Origin: Typhlomys cinereus
Lineage: Eukaryota; Chordata; Mammalia; Rodentia; Platacanthomyidae
Length of the DNA: 64,000 bases
Assembly (NCBI GenBank): GCA_023101885.1
Contig: JALPQD010000044.1
Span: 7,779,565-7,843,564, forward strand
Direction of reading: 5' to 3'
In this document: in pieces, positions 3,063 through 31,697 of the stretch
Layout: every line of letters starts with the position of its first letter
Position numbering within the stretch: position 1 is the first letter of the stretch
Notes under the pieces: model-generated
The model's input: the letters and a program-made list of their open reading frames with translations, nothing else
The model's database searches: none
Told to the model about the DNA's origin: nothing
Translations under genes and position numbers: made by a program

Positions 3063-4378
3063 AAAAAAAAAAGAACTAACCCCATAATGATGGATTCCAA
3101 CCAGAACAAATTCACAGAAAACAGCTAAGAAAACCAGACCCAAGATAACGACTTTCAAAGGATGATCATTACCATGATCAATATGAAAGAGGAAATCTGG
3201 AGGAGTTAAACAACTGCATCAACCACTTTGAAGAGGAACACAACAGACGCTTGGAGGAGTTGAGAAAAACAGTGCAAGAAACAAAAACTGGCATAGAGCA
3301 GTTAAAACAGACTCAAGCAGAGTTTAAAACTGAGCTAAAAGACAAGTTATCTTCAACCCAGAACGCCACAGAGAGTCTTATCAGCAGAACTAACGAAGCA
3401 GAAAACAGAATTTCAGACCTTGAAGATAAAGTGGGAGTATTAATCAGCTCAATGGAAGAGATTGTTAAAGCCAAAAAGATATTTGAGAGGAATATTCAAG
3501 AGTTATGGGACACCCTGAAGAAGCCTAACATGCGCATTCATGGAATACCAGAATCCCAAAATACCACACCTGAAGAAATTTTTTAAATTATAATAAATGA
3601 ATACTTCCCTCAACTAAAAAATGAGAGGCCGATCCAAATACAGGAGGCATTCCGCACCTCAAAAAGATATGAGCAAAATAGAAAATCGCCATGGCAAATA
3701 ATAGTCAAAACACTTCACATTCAGGACAAAGAAAAGGTGCTGAGAGCTTCAAGGGAAAAACAAAGTCACGTTTAAAGATAAACCTATTAAAATAACAAAT
3801 GACTTCTCAATGGAAACAGTAAAAGCAAGAAGAGCTTCGAAAGACGTACTACAAGTATTAAATGAGCAAAAATGTCAACCCAGGCTAATATACCTGGCAA
3901 AATTATCTGTCATGATAGAAGGAGAAAGAAAAGTTTTCTAGCACAAACACAACTTGAAGGCATATATGTCTACCAAACCCGGCCTTCAAAAAATGCAAGA
4001 AATGGGGGCTGGAGAGGTGGCTCAGGGGTAAGCTTCTGCCTTGCAGGCAGAAGGTCCCGAGTTTGGATCCTAGACCCCACGCATAGACGCTAGGAGGACA
4101 CAGGGGCAGCCTGTGTTTCTGATCCTGGTAGGGCGGAGCCTGTGAATCCCAGGGCAGAGTAAACAAGGAGGAGGTGGAAGCGTCCATGGTGGTTCCCGAA
4201 TTCACCCATGGTTCTCCACACACATGCATGCACGCACGCACGCATGCATGCACGCATGCATACATGCACAATAGAATAAATAAAAAAATTTTAAAAAATT
4301 AAAAAATGCAAAAAATGATACTCGAGACTGAAGATAAAAACAAGCATATCCAGGAGGACAGAAGGGAAGTATAATACC
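3063..4378 (+). pseudogene. L1 ORF1 (RNA-binding chaperone), 5'-truncated and broken
   Basis: ORF1 makes the trimeric nucleic-acid chaperone that coats L1 RNA. The longest clean piece, 3251-3586, is the coiled coil: heptad-like runs of Leu/Ile with Glu and Lys, including ENRISDLEDKVG. After it come the RRM-like part (RIHGIPESQNTTPEEIF) and the C-terminal domain, broken by a stop at 3584-3586 and by frameshifts. The C-terminal part is split by a SINE at 4005-4300. The N-terminus and start codon are missing. Confidence 0.85.
4005..4300 (+). mobile_element. tRNA-derived B2-headed SINE
   Basis: The head GGGGCTGGAGAGGTGGCTCA resembles the rodent B2 tRNA-related region, with A-box and B-box-like stretches giving an internal pol III promoter. 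A GC-rich body follows, then a CATG/CACG-repeat stretch and an A-rich tail. It is flanked by an imperfect duplication, AAAAAATGCAAGAAATG at 3988-4004 and AAAAAATGCAAAAAATG at 4301-4317, the mark of L1-driven insertion. It sits in L1 B ORF1. The same family occurs at 8133, 26145, 31410 and 58580. Confidence 0.9.
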
Positions 4379-7300: not shown

Positions 7301-7954
7301 CAAGACTTAATTCCAAATGGATCAAGGACCTCAATATAAGGCCAGAGACTATAGAAACCTTAGTTGAAAGGGTCGGGAACTCCCTTAAGATGATTGGACT
7401 AGGCCAACAGTTCCTAATCAGAAATCCAATAGCACAGTCACTACAACCAACACTCAACAGTTGGGATCTTCTGAAATTAAAGAGCTTCTGTTCAGATAAA
7501 GAGGTTGTAACACGAGCTCAAAGGCAACCCATAGAATGGGCGAAAATCTTCACTAACCACATATCTGATATCTATTATCCTGAGTGCACAAAGAACTTAG
7601 AAAACTAAACACCAAGGAAACAAATGGCCCAATTAAAAAATGGGTCTTGGAACTTAAAAGAAACTTTACCAGGGAAGAAATTGAAATGTCTAACAAATAT
7701 CTTAAAAAATGCTCCACATCCTTAGCCATCAAAACCTCCCTGAGATATCATCTCACCCCATCAGGATGGCAAAAATCCACTATACAAACAACACCAAATG
7801 CTGGAGAGGATGTGGCAAGAAGGGAACTCTCCTACATTGCTGGTGGGAATGCAGGCTTATACAAACACTATGGCGAGCTGTCTGGTGATTCCTAAAAAAG
7901 TTAAAGATTGAAATGCCATATGACCCTGCTATTCCACTTTAGGGAATAATCCCC

Positions 7955-8194
7955 TGCCGAGTCTCGGCAGCTAGTGTGAAAGGGAGTGCTGGTCCAGCCA
8001 GGCACAACCTGGGGCTGAGCAGGATGATGAGTGTCGTCAGCCCGGACCCCCCTCACCACCGGGGAAAGACACACCAGGCTGGGAGCTCTGTTGAAGCAAG
8101 AACCAACTTTATTGCAACAGTCAGGCACTTATCTTTTTTTTTAAATTTTTTTATTATTATTATTATTTATTCAACTGTGTATGTGCGCGCGCAT

Positions 8195-8247
<53 letters not shown>

Positions 8248-8777
8248 TGTGTATGTGTAGAACCCGGACGAATTCGCGAACCACCATGGGCGCCTCCACC
8301 TCCTTCTGCCCCGGGATTCACAGGCTCCGCCCTACCAGGACCAGAAGCGCAGGCCGCCCCCGCTTCCGTCTGGCGTCTATACGTGGGATCTGGGATCCGA
8401 ACTCGGGACCTTCCGCCTGCAAGGCAGAGGCTTAACCCCTGAGCCACCTCTCCAGCCCAACAGTCAGGCACTTATATACCCCACCCAACATCCATAAGTC
8501 CTAGCGTGAGTCTTTGCTGATTGGCCTTCTCAGCTAGGCGGTTTAATGGCACCAACTGTAGAAAGCGTAGTCTCACGAGATTTGTAGTCTCATGAGATTA
8601 TTATGGGCTAGTGGGGTGTTACTATGGGCCAGTTGCTGTTGCAACCTAAGGCTGTACTGCATCAGCCACAGGCTGTGCTGAATCATGCTGGTGAGGCAGC
8701 TTAAACAGGTCATGAAATTCTAGCCAGGCTCAGGAAGTTCTAACAGGCCTTGTCCAGGGTCTCAATGAGGTCCCGCA
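7955..8777 (-). repeat. ERV 3' LTR, interrupted by a SINE
   Basis: Matches the LTR at 12056-12509 along its length apart from a SINE at 8133-8458. On the minus strand the order is U3, TATATAAG (near 8470-8477), the SINE, then the AATAAA poly(A) signal (8108-8113), so the SINE splits the R region between promoter and poly(A) signal. The differences between the two LTRs are scattered substitutions plus an insertion in U3 near 8620-8670, indicating moderate age. A polypurine tract on the minus strand (AAAATAAAAGGGGGTTT, near 8778-8796) borders it. Confidence 0.9.
8133..8458 (-). mobile_element. B2-headed SINE inside the ERV LTR
   Basis: Read on the minus strand it begins with the GGCTGGAGAGGTGGCTCAGG head and continues through a GC-rich body still rich in CpG. 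A long (GT)n microsatellite follows (about 8198-8247) and then an A/T-rich tail (8133-8170). The target duplication is perfect over 17 bp, AACAGTCAGGCACTTAT (8116-8132 and 8459-8475). Retained CpGs and the perfect duplication suggest recent insertion, later than the ERV. Confidence 0.93.
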
Positions 8778-8939: not shown

Positions 8940-9167
8940 TTACCCGTCATTGGTCAGCATGGAGGGTAGGGGAGGTATATGAGTGGTGGCCATAGCCCCA
9001 GTTGGTATTCTGAGTGGCGAGTAATGAATCTTGACCTGATGAAATTTAATAGCCTCTATTCTTTGCTGGATGAATTGAGTGGCCTTATTAATGATGCAAG
9101 GCCCAATGAGCAAGAAAAAGGACAAGGAGAGGGCCCAAGAAGGGGAAGAAGTAAGGGAGAAGGCCAT
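8940..9167 (-). pseudogene. ERV env remnant: transmembrane subunit end
   Basis: A 75-codon minus-strand frame contains a hydrophobic stretch followed by LLIGPCIINKATQFIQQRI, the pattern seen where the membrane anchor of gamma/D-type retroviral envelope proteins passes into the cytoplasmic tail. The surface subunit, fusion region and ectodomain are absent between here and integrase, so no functional envelope is possible. The pairing with a betaretrovirus-like pol would fit a type-D-like recombinant. Identification is by motif only. Confidence 0.6.
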
Positions 9168-9429
9168 TCTTGAAGTTCACTCCTGCAAATCTCCAAATTC
9201 TCCATCACAGGGCCAGACGAGGGCTGTCAGCACCAGGATGGTCAGGCACAGCGATGTCATCCTCTGGTTCTGGGGAGAGAGCAAAGGGGCACTCCTCAGG
9301 GGTACAAGACTCCCTGGAGCTGTGTTTATCATCTTGTGAGAGGTACTTTAGGTCCCTGGCAGGGATCCAGATGGGGCATTTTTCACTCTGGGGAAAGACA
9401 CAGTCAAATCCTCACCCTGCTGATATAAG

Positions 9430-10985
9430 GAGATCAGGCCCTCTCCAGGCTCCTGTCAATGGGTCTTTCCAGTTCACCCAGATGGAACTGTATGTAATGG
9501 AGGAAGTCCAGTGCCTTTGGAAAGGGGAAGGCCCATCCGTTTTTGAAAAATTTAATATATTTAAAGTAAATAGCACTCTCTTTAGTTGATCATGAGGAGG
9601 TGATGACTCCCCCTGTTGGATCATAAGGAAGTAATGACTCCCCCTGTTGTTTTTGTGCATTGTGGGGGATCCCCATGGTGTGTGAGACACGCCACATATT
9701 AGGGAAATCTATAAAAGTCTTACTAGTAAAGCATGGGCCATTATCAGTTTTAATTTGATCTGGAAGACCAAGTGTGGCAAAGCATTGAAGCATATGGCTA
9801 ATGGCATGTTTGGATTTTTCTCCTGTGTGGGCTGATGCCCAGCAGGCATGGGAGAAAGTATCAACGGTAAGAAAGATATATTTGAGCTTGCCAAAAGGGG
9901 GATAGTGGGTGACATCTATTTGCCATAAATTGTTGGGTCTTAGCCCACGAGGGTTGACCCCCATAGTCTGAAGGGGAGGATTTGTAAAAAAGGTTGGCAG
10001 GATTTGCAAGTGCAAATGATCTTTTTAAGATCCTTAATAAGCACTAAAGAATATTTGTGATGGAGGCTTCTCCAATTAGTGTGGGTGAGGCGATGGAAGC
10101 TAGTGGCCTCCTCAAAAGTCATGACAGACACCATTTTGTCTGCCAGGACATTGCCCTCAGAGAGGAACCCTGGTAGATTTTGGTGACCTCGAAGGTGGTG
10201 GAGGAAAATGGGGTTGGTCCTTTGTTTAAGTAGAGACCAAACTTGGATCATTAAGGGAGATATAGGGTTAGAGTCTAACTTGATGTGGGACTCAGCAGGT
10301 TGACAACATAAAGGCTGTCAGAGAACAGGTTGAATTACTATTGTGTGGTATCCAATGCTAAGGCAACAGCAAATAGTTCTTTGAATTGTGCAGATCCCTC
10401 AACCTCATGGGTGACTGACCTGATAGGTGCTGGTATTTTACCCAGTTTATGGAGGGGGTAGACTACTAAAGATGCCCCCAAACGTCCCCATCAGTAAAAG
10501 CAGTAAGAATATCAGGGTTAGGCTGGGATAAGAAGAGTTTGGGGGGTACCCAGTTTAATCTAGTTAAATGGACTCATCCATCTGTGGAGGCCATGACAGT
10601 CAATTTTTCCCATAAACCCTTCTAGAGCTATGGCAATTCTATCATTGTTCCTCTGGAGCCAGGTAAAATCTGTTAGCTTAAAGGGAACAATCAGGAAATG
10701 GGGCTCTATTCCAAACAGCCTGATGGAGGTATCTCGGTCTTTGATGATGCAATCTGCAACTTAGTCGGTCATAGAATACATCTTAGGGGCTCCACCAATG
10801 GAAAGAAGTATCCAATGTATGGGGTGGCCCTCCTGGGCCAGAAGGGCAGTATATAAGGTGCTACCAGAGAATAAATAAAGGGTTACAGGAAGGGAAGAGT
10901 TGAATCTCTTTAGCACCAAAGTGTTTATGGCACTTTGAATCTTTTGTAGCAGGTGTTTATGTGATGGGTCAAAGATCACACGAGA
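9430..10985 (-). pseudogene. ERV pol: RT connection, RNase H and integrase
   Basis: Reading from 10985 downward there is an RT connection-like segment (to about 10560) and RNase H pieces with FTDG (near 10490) and an ELFAV segment (near 10380). The end of RNase H (HHLRGHQN... near 10190) leads into the integrase zinc-binding His pair and CxxC (about 10110-10000). The integrase core follows with catalytic Asp in WQIDVTH (near 9924) and in KTDNGP (near 9745). A C-terminal WKDPLTGAWRGPD segment lies near 9470-9432. Frameshifts and stops separate these pieces. The RT palm with its catalytic motif and the protease are absent, and the sequence joins host-like DNA near 10988. Confidence 0.82.
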
Positions 10986-10987
10986 GG

Positions 10988-11883
10988 AAAGGTCAAGCCC
11001 TTTTTCAGATCCTCCAATTCTTTCTCCACTTGACTTTTCTGGAATTGTTTTAGCTTTCTGAGAGAATTGTCCCTCCAACTCGTTTCTTTTCTTTCTCCAC
11101 TGTCAGAAGCAACATAGTCTAGCAGCGAAACCATTCATCTTTGCAAAGAGTAATCTTAAAACTTTCTCCTCCTGTTCCCAGGTCAAATCACCAATATCCA
11201 CATTTACTTTACTACTTGGCCATTTCTGATTTACACTATTTGTGCTGTGTTCTCTGCCATCAAATGTCCTGATTTTGGGATATTCTGTTTTTCCTGCACA
11301 TGCTGTCCTCATCTTTAAATTGAAGGCAGCTTGTGCTATCTGCTTGTAATGCCACCTGCTGGTTAGAATCTGTTTACTTAGTTTAGAGCATCTAGAAAGA
11401 ACCTCTTCACTTCTGTTCTCTCATCCAGGATGTTCTTAGCCAGCCTCTTCACTCTATTCATTTCTCTGTCCTTGTCAATTTCCAGGATGCTCTTAGCCAG
11501 CCTCTTCACTCTTCATTTCCCTGTCCTTGTCAATTACTACCGAACCTGCTTAGTTCTCTATTATTGCCTGTTGCTGAAGTTTTGAAACTTCAGTCTCAAA
11601 CTCTGTTGCGATTTCTGCTGGGGAAGTTGCAGGATCTTTTCTTTTCTTTAATGACTCTCTTGCAACTTCTGGAAGCTTTTTTGTAGAGTTTCAGTTTCCT
11701 TCAGATGGTATGTGAGAGCTTTGTGAAGATAAACATTCTCAATTGCACCACAGCTTCATGGTGAATTCTCTCTGCCAGCATTACTATCCTTTTCTCAGCC
11801 TCTTGTTCTAGACGATGCTTTTCTTCAAAAAATCTGCCTTCTAGTCTTCTAAGAGTCTCCTGATGCCTTTTCTCTGTGTTCCG
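10988..11883 (-). pseudogene. BBOF1: Captured host-like coiled-coil sequence, probably BBOF1
   Basis: Minus-strand frames here are cellular, not retroviral: RNTEKRHQETLRRLEGRFFE (from about 11883), a KALTYHLKETETLQK-type coiled coil (near 11720), EIDKDREMNRVKRLAKNILD (near 11480), KTEYPKIRTFDGREHSTNSV (near 11290-11230) and VDIGDLTWEQEEKVLRLLFA (near 11200-11140). From memory these match basal body orientation factor 1, a ciliary coiled-coil protein, from its middle to near its C-terminus. After the C-terminal-like SDSGE (near 11095) comes NELEGQFSQKAK (11083 down), then a QFQK...VEKELEDLKKG piece. In my recollection that last part lies upstream of the first and is contiguous with its start, so the order is permuted. 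No introns are visible, and there are small internal deletions, frameshifts and a 57/55-bp tandem duplication (11424-11535). Gene identity is recalled, not searched. Confidence 0.6.
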
Positions 11884-12055
11884 ACAAGGTCATCAGGATG
11901 TAGGGGAATAAAACTCTTGAGTGAGTCTAGCGCGGAACAGGTTTGGAGTAAGACTGCCCCATATCTTCTGGAGGTATACTCACCCATAGACTGATTAGCC
12001 AGTCAGCGATCATCCGAGGGGAATTCCTCACATGGCCTAACATGGGGCACCAGTC
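11884..12055 (-). other. ERV leader with primer site and gag start
   Basis: Directly after the 5' LTR (minus strand) lies TGGTGCCCCATGTTAGGC (about 12051-12034), a degenerate version of a Lys-type tRNA primer site with some five mismatches. A GTGAGTA splice-donor-like site follows near 11977. A short frame starting ATGGGGCAG (11964) has an N-myristoylation-type gag beginning but stops after 11 codons (11929). Host-like sequence begins about 45 bp further on, so gag is replaced almost at its start. Confidence 0.65.
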
Positions 12056-12509
12056 TGCCGGGTCTCGGCAGCTAGTGTAGAAGGGAGTGCTGTCCACCCA
12101 GGCACAACCTGGGGCTGAGCAGGATGATGAGCGTTGCCGGCCTGAACCCTCCTCACCACCGGGGAAAGATACACCAGGCCGGGAGCTCTGTTGAAGCAAA
12201 AACCAACTTTATTGCAACAGTCAGGCACTTATATACCCAACCCAACATCCCATAAGTCCTAGCGTGAGTCTTTGCTGATTGGCCCTCTCAGCTAGGTAGT
12301 TTAACAGCACCAACTGCAGAAGGCGTAGTCTCGCGAGATTTGTAGTCTCGCAAGATTTATCATGGGCTAGTGGGGCGTTACTATGGATTGCAACAGCCAC
12401 AAGGCTGTGCTGAATCATGCTGGTAAGGCAGCTTAAACAGGTCATGAAACTCTAGCCAGGCTCAGGAAGTTCCAACAGGCCTTGTCCAGGGTCTTGACAA
12501 GGCCCAACA
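12056..12509 (-). repeat. ERV 5' LTR
   Basis: A 454-bp LTR in minus orientation, beginning TGTTGGGCC (at 12509) and ending near 12056. It has a TATATAAG box (about 12228-12235) and an AATAAA poly(A) signal (about 12208-12213), spaced as expected for a short R region. U3 includes two CpG-containing TCTCGCGAGA/TCTCGCAAGA-like palindromic boxes (near 12330-12355), a motif known in CpG-type promoters. It pairs with the SINE-split LTR at 7955-8777. Confidence 0.9.
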
Positions 12510-13839
12510 ATCCCCCATACAGCAAAAATTCACCTTGATAGCACAAGCACGACCATATTCATAGCAGTACTGTTTACAATAGCAAAGTCTTGGAATCAAC
12601 CCAAATGCCCAACAGTTCACGAGTGGATAAGGAAAATGTGGTACAAATTTATACAATGGAATACTACTCAGCCATCAAAAATGATTAATTAATGAAATTT
12701 GCTGGGAAATAGATGGAATTAGAAACAATTATATTGAGTGAAGTATCCCAGACATAGAAAATTGAGCGCCCTATGTACTCCCTAATAGGTGGATCCTAGT
12801 ACCAAACCCACTTAGTGACACACTCAAAGATAAATCTCTGTAATACCTAGAGTAACTACAATGATTATAAGCAGAGGAGGGAAGGGGAAGAAGGGCCCCA
12901 CCAGAAACAAGGAGAGAAGGGATCATGCTACAGCAGAGAAATATAGCCAACATCATAGACTGTAACTAAGTAATGAGACATCTGGTTGGGATTACAGACT
13001 TTCCCTACTGGTCACTTGCATCTCATGGGTCACTTGCACCAAAAAGGGAGGGCATAGAGTCTGGTAGATAGAAGGTAACCATCCTGTAAATGGTCTCCTA
13101 CTCTTATTCCATCTGCCTTTGAATCTACTCTTAAAGACTTTATTTTAACAGCCTTTTATCTCTGGCCAGGGGGTGACATCCAATACCCATCAGGATGGAG
13201 CCAAGGGCATTGCAGGAGCAGCAAAACTGAAAAAAAAAAAAATCAATGAACCATAATTCAGAAAATCAAAGGCTTTACATCAACCACCTAAAACCAGATC
13301 AACCTAATCTCTCCCCATCCTAAAGCTCAGGGAAATTTGCGGAAGAGGGGGCGGTAAGATTGTTAAGAGCCTAAAGATAGGGAGGACCAACGATATGCAA
13401 GACACTCCACAGAAGTTAGGGCCAAAGTAATCATAATAAGACTTTTCATGACCTGTGCAATGAACAACATATCATTGAACCCCAAAGTCTAGCATGGATC
13501 ACAGGCACTAGGATCCTTAGAGGGAAGGGATTAACAGCCACAATAGTTTTCCTATACTTAAGGGGAACACAAGAAAGAGCTCTAGGCAATGCCACTGAGT
13601 CCTTACACCTCACCAGAGAGGAGGACCAGAGGGAAGTTTGACATGCACACTGAAGGATGCTCCAGGAATGGGGAAGGGGGAAGGAGCACTCGGAAAAAGG
13701 GAGGGAGGGGGAAAGGAAGGGGAAAAGGGAGGGAGGAAACAAGAGGGTCCAAGGAGGGGTGGAGGGAGGGAGGAAGAGGAATGGGGTCCTTATCAACTTT
13801 GTATGAGTGGGAAAAAAATTTTAAAAAATATGGAAAAAA

Positions 13840-14955
13840 AAGATCCAGTGTATGGAACACCTCTGCAAGAGGAAGGCCGAACAAGGCTGTGAACACCTGG
13901 TCTGCTCCTCGGGCAATGCTGGGATGGCAGCTGCTTACGCCAGGAGGCTGGGCGTCCCTGCCCTGTTGTGGTTCCCAACACCACATCCGCCCTCACCATC
14001 CAGAGGCTGAAAAGTGAGGCCACCGCGGTCAAGGTGGTGGGCGAGACGCTAGACCAAGCCTTCCAGCAGGCCAAGACCCCGGCAAGAGAGCAACCCAGGC
14101 TGGGTCTACAGCCCCCCTCTGATCCCTTCATCTGGGAAGGCCGCACATCCGTGAAGGGGCTGAAGGAGACGCTGAGCTCCAAGCCAGCACTACGGTGGTG
14201 TCAGTGGGCGGCCAGGGCCTGCGAGCGGTGGGCTGGAGGGATGCGCCCGTCATGCCATGGAGACCTTCGGGCCCACAGCTTCCACGCAGCCGTCGCCACT
14301 GGCAAACTGTCACCCTGCCCAAGATCTGCAGTGTGGCCAAGGCCTTGGAGTGAGCACTGTGGGGGACCCGGCCCCGTGAACACGCATCTGCTCCGAGGTC
14401 GTCTCAGGCCGGGAGGTGCGGATGCCAGCAGAGGAGATCCGGGCGGTGCCAGCCTGTGGGCGGCGCTGGCCGCCTTGTGCAGTCTCCCGGCGACTCAGCT
14501 CAGGAGGAGGGCAAGTTGCCGAGGCCCCCTGGCCGGCTGGTGGTCCTCGTGCGCGGGGGCAGCAACATCAGCCTGGCCCAGCTGCAGCGCCCAAGGCGCG
14601 GCTGGGCCTGAGGAATGGGCTGCCAGCGTGACCAGCCAGACCAAGCGCAGTCCACACCCTGCTGTGAGGCACGGAAGGTCCCACTGGAAGCTGAGCCCGA
14701 AGACTGGTCAGCCTAGACGCACAGAGACCCCGAAGCTGGCAGCCCGAGGGATCCCATGGGCAGCTGTGATTGTACTCAGCCACCCCAGTGAGGTGCCAAG
14801 CGAGTGACTCCACCGCCCCCCAGCAGGCGCGCCTGACCCCAGTGCAGGGAGGGGCCCTGGAAGCCGTCCTCCCCGTCTGCGCTCTGCTCAGCTGCCCTGA
14901 AGTGCAGTTCTTCACTATAAATATGTATTTATAAAGCAAGGATCCTTCAAAAAAA
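13840..14955 (+). pseudogene. SDS: Processed pseudogene of serine dehydratase
   Basis: A GC-rich, intronless segment with strong similarity, from memory, to L-serine dehydratase/L-threonine deaminase, a cytosolic PLP enzyme of liver. Readable pieces across several frames include KIQCMEHLCKRKAEQGCEHL (from 13840), a CSSGNAGMAAAYARRLGVPA segment (PLP phosphate-binding glycines), ALTIQRLKSEATAVKVVGET (13986 on), a PPSDPFIWEG segment (near 14115) and RGGSNISLAQL (near 14550). A stop near 14629 matches the normal C-terminus, and a 3'UTR-like stretch runs to an A-rich end (14948-14955). The copy is 5'-truncated near the PLP-lysine region and has many frameshifts and stops. It sits immediately behind the tail of L1 B, consistent with L1-mediated retrocopying. 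I could not define a target duplication. Confidence 0.82.
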
Positions 14956-24172: not shown

Positions 24173-27100
24173 GGATCAGGGTAGTTTTGATTTGCTAGGG
24201 ATGTGGAGTATTTTTTAAAATATTTGTTAGACATTTCAATTGCATCCTTGGAAAAGTTTTTTTTTTTCAGTTCTGAGGCCCATTTTTTAACTGGGCCATT
24301 TATCTCCTTGGTTTTTTAAGTTCTTTGTTCACCCTGGATAATAGAGCTCTATCAGATATGTGGTTAGTGAAGATTTTCTCCCATTCTGTGGGTTGCCTTT
24401 TTGCTCAGTTACAATCTCTTTATCTGAACAGAAGCTCTTTAATTTCATAAGACCCCATTTGCTGAGTGTTGGTTCTACTGTCTGTGCTATTAGATTTCTA
24501 AACTGTTGGTCTAGCCCAATCAACTCGAGGGAGTTCCCTACCCTTTCAACCAGGGTTTTTATAGTCTCTGGCCTTATATTAAGGTCCTTGATCCATTTGG
24601 AATTAAGTCTTGTACATGGTGACAAGTACGGGTCCAGCTATAATCTTCTCCATGTGGAGATCCAGTTTTGCCAGCACCATTTGTTGAAGATGCTGTTCTT
24701 TTTCCATAGAATTTTTGGGCCCCTTTGTCAAAGATCAAATGGCTATAATTGTGTGGACTTATATCTGGGTCTTTAACCCTTATCCATTGATCTTTGTGTA
24801 TTTTGGAGCCAGTACCCGACTGTTTTTATTACTATGGATTGGTAGTATAAATTGGTAGTATAGTATAGGTTTGGTGCGGTAATACCTCCAGCAGTGTTTT
24901 TATTACTTAGGATTGTTTTGTTCTCCTGGGCCTTTTATGCTTCCATATGAATTTTGAGATTGTTTGGCCAATTTCTTTAAAGAATCTTTGGAATTCTGAT
25001 TGGTATAACATTGAATCTGTATATTGCCTTTGGTAGGATGGTCATTTTTATGATGTTGATTCTGCTGATCCAGAAGCATGGGAGGTCTTTCCACCTTCTG
25101 GTGTCTTCTGTAATTTCTTTCTTTAGGTTTCAAAGTTTTCATTTTAAAGGCCTCTCACTTCTTTGGTTAGGTTTATACCAAGGTATTTCATTTTTTTTAG
25201 GGGCTACAGTAAATGGGATTGTTTCTCTTAGGACTTTTTCACTTCTTTCATTCTGGGCATATAGGAAGGCCACTGATTTTTGCACATTTATTTTATAACC
25301 TGCCACTCTGCTGAACTTTATGTATTAGTTTCAGGAGTTTCCTGGTGGACTTTTTAGGATCTCTCAGGTATACAATCATGTCATCTGCAAATAAAGATAT
25401 CTTAATTTCCTCCTTTCTGAGTTTATTTCTGTTTATCTCCCTCTCTTGTCTTATGGCTTTAGCTAAGATTTCAAGTACAATATTAAATAGAAGTGGTAAG
25501 AGTGAACGCCCTTGTCTAGTTCCTAATCGAAGCGAAAATGCTTCAAGTTTTTCCCCATTAAGTATAATCCTTGCTATTGGCTTGTTGTATATAGCTTATA
25601 TTATGTTGATATAAGTTCCTTCCATTCCAACTGTCTCTAGGGTTTTGATCATAATAGAATATTGGATCTTATTAAAAGCTTTTTCTGCATCTATCGAGAG
25701 TATCATATAGTCTTGGACTTTGGATTGGTTTAAGTGATTTATTGATTTTCCTATGTTGAACCAACCTTATGTGTCCTGGGATAAAGCCTACTTGATCACA
25801 GTGAATCTCTTTGATATGTTTTCGAATCCGATTTTCTAAGATTTTGTTAAGAACCTTTGCATTTGTGTTCATCAAAGAGATTAAGATGAAATTAGCTTCA
25901 TAGAAAGAATTTGGAAATGTTCCTTCCTTCACTATTTTGTGGAAGAGTTTAAGGAATATTGGCTGTTAGTTGTTCTTTAAATGTTTGGTAGAATTCTGTG
26001 CTGAATCCATCTGGTCCAGGACATTTTTTGTGGGAAGACTAGAGATTACTTCATCAATTTCCTTATTTGTTATAGGACTATTTAAATAATTCAAAACTTC
26101 CTGATTCAAATTAAGTAAGTTGTGCTTACTCAAGATTTCATCCAGGGGCTGGAGAGGTGGCTCAGGGGTTAAGCCTCTGCCTTGCAGGAGAAGGTCCTGA
26201 GTTCGGATCCTAAACCCCACGTATAGACGACAGGTGGAAGCGGGGGCAACCTGCATTTCTGGTCCTGTAGGGCGGAGCCTGAATCCCGGGGCAGATTAAA
26301 CAAGGAGGAGGTGGAGGCGGTCCATGGTGGTTCCGGAATTCGTCCGTGGTTCTACACACACACACATACATGCACACACGCGCACACACCATACATGGAC
26401 AATTGAATAAATAATAATAATAAAAAGATTTCATCCATTTCTTTTGTGTTATCAAATGTCATAGAGTATAAATTTTTGAAATATTACGTCATAATTCTCT
26501 GAATTTCTTGGGTATCAGTTGTGATTTTCATTTTAATTTTGTTAATATGTTTTTTTTCTCTCTTGATTTAAGCTAATTTAGCTGGGTGTATCAATCACAT
26601 TGATATTTTCAAAGAACCAGCTTTTCCTCTGGTTAATTCTTTGTATCATTTTCCTTATTTCAAAATTGGATATTTCTCCCCTGATTTTTGCTGATCTCCT
26701 CTCTTCTACTGCTTTTGGGGTGGATTGCTCTTGTGTCTCTAAAGCTTTAAGCTGCATTTACTTGTGATGTTTCTATTTTTTTTGATATTGTCATTAAGAG
26801 CTATAAACTTACCTCTTAGGACAGCTTTCATTGTTTCCCAGTGATCTTGATATATTGTATTTTCATTATTGTTCACTTCTAGGAAATCTTGAATTTCCTT
26901 TTTGATTTCTTTCTGAATCCATTTCTCATTCAGTATCATAGTATTTAGTTTCCAAGAGTTACTTAGTATATTTTGGCCCATGTTGAGAGTGCAATAGTGA
27001 AATCCCCAAGTATTATCGTTTTGGTACTGATTTCTTATTTTAGACATTGTAGTGTTTGCTTAATGACTGTGGAGGAGCCCATATTAGATGAGTAAATGTT

Positions 27101-31409: not shown

Positions 31410-31640
31410 GGGGCTGGAGAGGTAGCTCGGGGGTTAAGCCTCTGCCTTAAAGGCAGAAGGTCCTGAGTTCAGATCCCGTATCCCACGTGTAGATGCCGAG
31501 CGGAAGCGGGGGCAGCCTGCGTTTCTGGTACTCATAGGGAGGAGCCTGTGAATCCCAGGGCAGAGTAAACAAGGAGGAGGTGGAGGTGGTCCATGGTGGT
31601 TCCCGAATTTCACCTGTGGTTCTGCACACACACACACAAA

Positions 31641-31697
<57 letters not shown>

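Follow-up and report, generated by a model that had tools for sequence, protein, structure and literature searches.

A spliced and permuted BBOF1-like cDNA amplified within the reverse transcriptase gene of a class II endogenous retrovirus of Typhlomys cinereus

A class II endogenous retrovirus (ERV) family of Typhlomys cinereus carries, within its reverse transcriptase (RT) gene, a spliced and permuted set of host exons that is present at no fewer than 39 ERV places in the genome. We regard it as probable, on the sequence evidence, that this cassette arose by retroviral copying of a circular RNA of the gene BBOF1 for one lap, in preference to switches on a linear mRNA. The analysis started from a stretch of 64,000 nt (GCA_023101885.1, contig JALPQD010000044.1, positions 7,779,565–7,843,564 of the forward strand), referred to below as the window, which is one of the 39 places.

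The provirus and the source of its insert

The window contains a single provirus (12515–7949, minus strand), flanked on both sides by a 6-bp duplication of host sequence (GGGGAT; 12510–12515 at the 5′ end and 7949–7954 at the 3′ end). The 5′ LTR (12056–12509) is directly followed by a primer-site-like sequence (12020–12055, recognized from its sequence) and by a gag start (11909–11962, ATG at 11962), which is ended about 50 nt on by a deletion into RT. Downstream of the insert lie a remnant of the RT connection and RNase H (10040–11002, matching the insert-free locus L070 from base 556, with a weak RNase_H match) and the zinc-binding and core domains of integrase (9590–10107; Pfam Integrase_Zn, E = 3.6e-4, and rve, minus 9590–10024, E = 3.1e-21). 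These are followed by C-terminal pieces of integrase in two frames (9205–9480; IN_DBD_C, below the cut-off) and by a possible, weakly matching end of env (8940–9176; TLV_coat, E = 0.024, below the cut-off), env being at most a remnant in this provirus according to Pfam. The 3′ LTR (7955–8777) is interrupted by a SINE-like insertion at approximately 8133–8457, and the two LTRs of the window copy have diverged by a K2P distance of 0.092 over 448 sites. The preliminary description had read LTR, leader, gag start, a host-like stretch, RT connection, RNase H and integrase on the minus strand, and all of these are present.

The best PDB chains for the integrase are 5cz2, 3jca and 7usf, which we take to be chains of MMTV. 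Copies with a longer gag match Gag_p10 (PF02337) and Gag_p24 (PF00607), and a 6-bp target duplication fits class II. As integrase, gag and duplication agree, the provirus is a class II (betaretrovirus-like) ERV, and a very defective one. No relative was found when the integrase piece was compared with viral contigs, and the PDB search with the gag piece gave no matches. The SINE-like element in the 3′ LTR has a long CA run, and similar elements are located at 4006–4270, 26146–26389 and 31411–31691 of the window. A remnant on the plus strand (13840–14800) with a weak match to PALP (pyridoxal-phosphate enzyme; E = 0.005, below the cut-off) is perhaps a serine dehydratase-like retrocopy.

Homology to a host gene extends over minus 11882–11003 and is intronless. 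DUF4515 (PF14988) is matched by minus 11701–11889 (Pfam, E = 4.2e-8), and a search of the same genome (2.68 Gb) with this profile yielded ten matches, two of which represent exons of a single gene, located on contig C313. This parent gene retains its introns, and the insert aligns to its exons with the introns missing. We set the parent exon boundaries at AG/GT sites and named the exons E3 to E10, a numbering that is assumed, as the first exons are unmapped. Over E4–E8 the window insert aligns to the parent in six blocks; rounded identities are 95–97% in five of them and 86% in the sixth, a long gapped block in E7. Identity is 95% for the E9 block and 86–87% for the two E3 blocks. The E4/E5, E5/E6, E7/E8, E8/E9 and E3/E4 joins are precisely spliced in the copies that retain them; E8/E9 has been lost from the window copy, and E6/E7 falls within a deletion.

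Downstream of the parent gene, the opposite strand carries an aldehyde dehydrogenase gene, which fits a position next to ALDH6A1, presumably the neighbor of BBOF1. A table for the pig places BBOF1 near LIN52 and ABCD4, and ALDH6A1 is not named there. Together, the Pfam match, the gene on C313 and the aldehyde dehydrogenase gene next to it support BBOF1 as the source, and with the spliced joins reproduced this upholds the earlier suggestion of a captured host mRNA, probably that of BBOF1. A PDB search with the host part of the insert gave no matches, and minus-strand frames upstream of the parent gene (L057) gave no Pfam match. Five strong DUF4515 matches elsewhere (L041–L045, on C160, C112, C53 and, twice, C62), with open frames of 317–461 aa, are apparently single-exon BBOF1 relatives.

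Position of the insert in RT and its amplification

Directly 5′ of the host sequence lie about 24 nt of the viral RT palm (minus 11908–11885). They match five of the 12 insert-free loci (L070, L077, L079, L080 and L081), where they run on into uninterrupted RT; the other seven lack this region in the stretch read. The 3′ join falls in the RT connection, where RT is uninterrupted in L070, L079 and L081. No BBOF1 match was found in L074–L081 or in the first 780 bases of L070. By this comparison, the cassette has replaced between approximately 340 nt (relative to L070) and 460 nt of RT, L077 and L080 being about 118 nt longer there. A direct run from gag into BBOF1, our first impression, was dropped, as the insert-free relatives show RT palm between the two. 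Of the host sequence reported to follow soon after the gag start, minus 11882–11003 stands as such, and the 24 nt preceding it are viral.

What the insert took the place of is confined to RT, and only to part of it. The loss of gag, protease and the N-terminal part of RT is a separate deletion; gag beyond its start is retained in 9 of the 39 cassette copies. The earlier placement of the insert in the stead of gag, protease and RT is corrected accordingly. At least three forms of the loss from gag to RT occur, that of the window, that of L018–L021 and that of L002, L031, L036, L038 and L040, in which the capsid is kept. A query with gag gave 398 candidates, 40 of which were scored, 35 at places outside the 39 with a cassette. 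Eight insert-free loci were read beyond the point at which gag-bearing cassettes leave gag; gag continues in seven, and other sequence takes over at that point in the eighth (C60). The differing lengths of gag before one and the same RT/BBOF1 join (L018–L021, L002, L031, L036, L038 and L040) suggest recombination with gag-bearing relatives. In L023 (3321–3497) a gag-like piece is found downstream of the RT part, an unusual order.

A query with the insert gave 49 candidates; all 40 that were scored matched, one being the parent gene and the other 39 ERV copies, that of the window included, so that 39 is a lower bound. What had been described from one provirus is thus an amplified family and not a lone capture. 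The 5′ join can be displayed in 35 of the 39 copies and the 3′ join in 32, and apart from private changes they agree, with L036 deviating at the 3′ join. These common junctions reflect one capture followed by germline amplification. The copies differ from the parent by a mean K2P of 0.058 (0.034–0.111, n = 39) and from each other by a mean of 0.069; capture therefore came first and amplification afterwards, at a depth similar to that of the LTR divergence. The long cassettes are not grouped in a single clade of the tree, which covers the 37 copies of sufficient length; this may stem from recombination, and weak support would equally produce it. The cassettes of L008 (C279) and L009 (C179) differ by a K2P of only 0.001, where other copies differ by several percent; this reflects a recent duplication or a late movement.

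Most mammalian retrocopies are made by L1 (also stated in part of PMC5408686), and a BBOF1 retrocopy of this kind, linear or circular, could have been inserted into an already deleted ERV that was amplified afterwards. The motif TGACCTT, present on both viral flanks, would seem to fit such an insertion, but the flanks lie approximately 340–460 nt apart in insert-free RT, and we rejected it as a target duplication. There is no A-tail at either viral join of the insert, RT is uninterrupted at the 5′ join in 5 of the 12 insert-free loci and at the 3′ join in 3 of these, and no insertion-type empty site was seen. Apart from the parent gene, every BBOF1 match that was scored is inside this ERV. We therefore consider an L1 origin very unlikely. 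Entry as RNA together with the retrovirus, as originally proposed, agrees with the lack of an A-tail, with RT being replaced rather than split, and with joins that are the same wherever they can be read.

Frame, exon order and template of the cassette

Several deletions are common to all copies that retain the respective region, namely those of 41 nt (39/39), 37 nt (32/32) and 28 nt (7/7), and others are frequent (24 nt in 38/39, 58 nt in 33/38 and 18 nt in 33/36 copies). Their ends have 0–3 nt of homology; skipping of hairpins as their cause gave no signal in any of the eight tested. Some copies keep pieces missing from others, such as 501–558 in five copies, 637–660 in L002 and 914–931 in L006, L031 and L038. 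As the deletions are not universal, copies must have recombined or lost such pieces separately. By eye, a partial tandem duplication is visible in the E7 sequence of the window copy (11560–11430, minus strand).

The common 28-, 41- and 37-nt deletions shift the BBOF1 frame. In addition, the gag frame meets E4 out of frame in L002, L036, L038 and L040 and reaches a stop after 12–25 codons; in L031, which has a private deletion at the join, the frame also stops. With these shared frame-breaking deletions and the out-of-frame entry from gag, the family carried no BBOF1 protein, and the cassette was a passenger. A captured frame that is expressed, usually fused to gag, as in viruses of the transforming type, is absent by the frames read. 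Retention of the cassette through amplification at 39 places might suggest that BBOF1 aided spread through a functional protein, on its own or fused to gag, but the same deletions and stops make this scarcely credible.

The cassette begins with the series E4-E5-E6-E7-E8-E9 and closes with E3 followed by 6 nt from the start of E4, where the gene has E3 before E4. In the window copy, two bases of unsure origin at the 5′ join (11884–11883) separate RT from E4–E8 (11882–11119; intronless, shortened by internal deletions and, in this copy alone, partly duplicated within E7). They are followed by a partial E9, the first part of which is deleted (11118–11084), by E3, out of order and with a deletion of 37–38 nt (11083–11009), and by the first 6 nt of E4 (11008–11003), which are spliced to E3 and precede the 3′ join to viral RT. 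With both junctions mapped, the insert is seen to end in sequence from an upstream exon and is not colinear with the gene. The proposal of a single mRNA capture thus holds as far as spliced BBOF1 is concerned; for the permuted order, one linear mRNA copied once is insufficient.

Within E4, the viral joins are only about 6–13 nt apart. One lies at BBOF1 position 150 and the other at approximately 163, or at approximately 144 should the additional bases that seven copies (window, L003–L007 and L032) have at the 5′ join belong to the start of E4, a reading based on 6 nt. The jump from E9 to E3 has about 2 nt of homology. It leaves E9 short of its final 7 nt and E3 short of its initial 23 nt, and the same 30-nt gap is present in the 31 copies with both flanks (L028 is ambiguous, and seven copies are without the region). 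The jump thus starts and ends at these small distances from the E9 donor and the E3 acceptor, which would be paired in back-splicing; the precise E9|E3 junction of such a splice is seen in no copy. Since the viral joins nearly coincide in E4 and the jump ends lie near the back-splice sites, the cassette can thus be read as a circle of E3–E9 opened once. It looks like a circRNA-derived pseudogene in its non-colinear order, but as the back-splice join is missing we do not call it one. Inverted repeats flank E3 and E9; such pairs are common, the downstream ones lie beyond exon E10, and they are not discriminating.

The order could also have arisen from a linear BBOF1 mRNA by at least three template switches, with no circle needed. 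RT would have entered at E4, continued into E3 and jumped at a short A-rich homology to E9, either within that mRNA or on another one, and from there it would have read back as far as E4 before rejoining the viral RNA. The position of the jump away from splice sites and its short homology agree with such switching, and several switches per capture have been described for LTR-made retrocopies (PMC5408686, in part). This route explains neither the exit beside the entry point in BBOF1 nor the closeness of both jump ends to back-splice sites. Simulated random linear switching produced these coincidences at 0.9–1.3% and 0.6–1.6%, and both together at 4e-5 to 2e-4, figures that serve as a guide only, as the simulation was post hoc and assumed lengths for the unmapped exons. 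We regard linear switching as the less probable origin, if a far from negligible one.

The simplest template to yield both the exon order and the return to the entry point is a circular one of E3–E9. Under this preferred model, circular BBOF1 RNA of E3–E9 (1,112 nt) would have been packaged in a retroviral particle. During minus-strand synthesis, RT on viral RNA would have switched at the RT connection to the BBOF1 RNA at the start of E4, copied 5′-ward through E3 and then E9, E8, E7, E6 and E5 back to E4, and returned from there to the viral RNA in the RT palm. RNase H, by degrading the part of the circle that RT had already copied, would account for the exit at the entry point. Small deletions would have followed, one of them removing the back-splice join. 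The resulting carrier, a putative non-autonomous class II ERV family with BBOF1 cDNA in its RT gene, would have spread by LTR- and integrase-dependent retrotransposition with proteins supplied in trans. Against this model speak the missing back-splice join, the deletions that only some copies share, and the literature searched, in which no name for a BBOF1 circular RNA was found.

Relation to known systems

With spliced host sequence between its LTRs, in place of viral sequence and in several proviruses, the family is an ERV with a captured host gene. Acutely transforming retroviruses and defective elements of the ETn/VL30 type likewise combine partial virus with captured or non-viral sequence and depend on helper proteins. 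Unlike these, the BBOF1 family is without an oncogene or fusion protein; it is fixed in the germline, and the host gene it drew on is known. The human ERV that transduced FAM8A1 (Jamain et al., 2001, as cited in PMC6987440) is a further case of a host gene inside a mammalian ERV. In crocodilians, ERVs captured KIT ligand and nectin3 (PMC4299795, in part); there, too, an ERV lineage took up host mRNA and carried it to further places in the germline, but those captured genes are described as open, colinear and under purifying selection, whereas the BBOF1 frame is broken and its order permuted.

As far as these partial sources go, capture of host genes by ERVs with subsequent amplification is already known, as are poly(A)-less copies with scrambled exons. 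Each half of the present case has precedents; its anatomy is unusually complete. Among the matches listed, titles and abstract openings naming BBOF1 contained no link to a retrovirus, and those on circRNA pseudogenes with LTRs or ERVs described no mapped ERV capture of a circular RNA. The route of circular RNAs into genomes is called unknown in part of a review (PMC5345220). The BBOF1 ERV family is a fossil record of what looks like such an event, in which the parent gene, the virus without its insert, the joins on both sides and 39 copies are all available. One lap of copying inside a retroviral particle is thereby suggested as a testable route for circRNA into the genome, and the family is a case of a host passenger that an ERV amplified although it offered no protein frame.

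The closest parallel is found in the mouse circRFWD2 pseudogenes (Dong et al., 2016), described in PMC5345220 and PMC5408686 as tens of copies that bear a scrambled exon join, poly(A) being absent from 39 of 42, and with LTR sequence in their flanks (PMC5408686). The BBOF1 cassettes share the copy number in the tens, the scrambled exons, the lack of poly(A) and the LTR flanks. It is quite possible, if short of probable, that the events outlined for BBOF1, one-lap copying of the whole E3–E9 circle, a return forced by RNase H and later amplification, represent the general origin of such high-copy poly(A)-less circRNA pseudogenes, circRFWD2 included. The circRFWD2 copies differ in being marked by their circularization join (exon 6 to exon 2), where that of BBOF1 is lost in the 30-nt gap. 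By comparison with what those sources give for circRFWD2, the BBOF1 cassette adds a mapped viral gene that was entered, both viral joins and insert-free relatives, with joins that meet on the circle.
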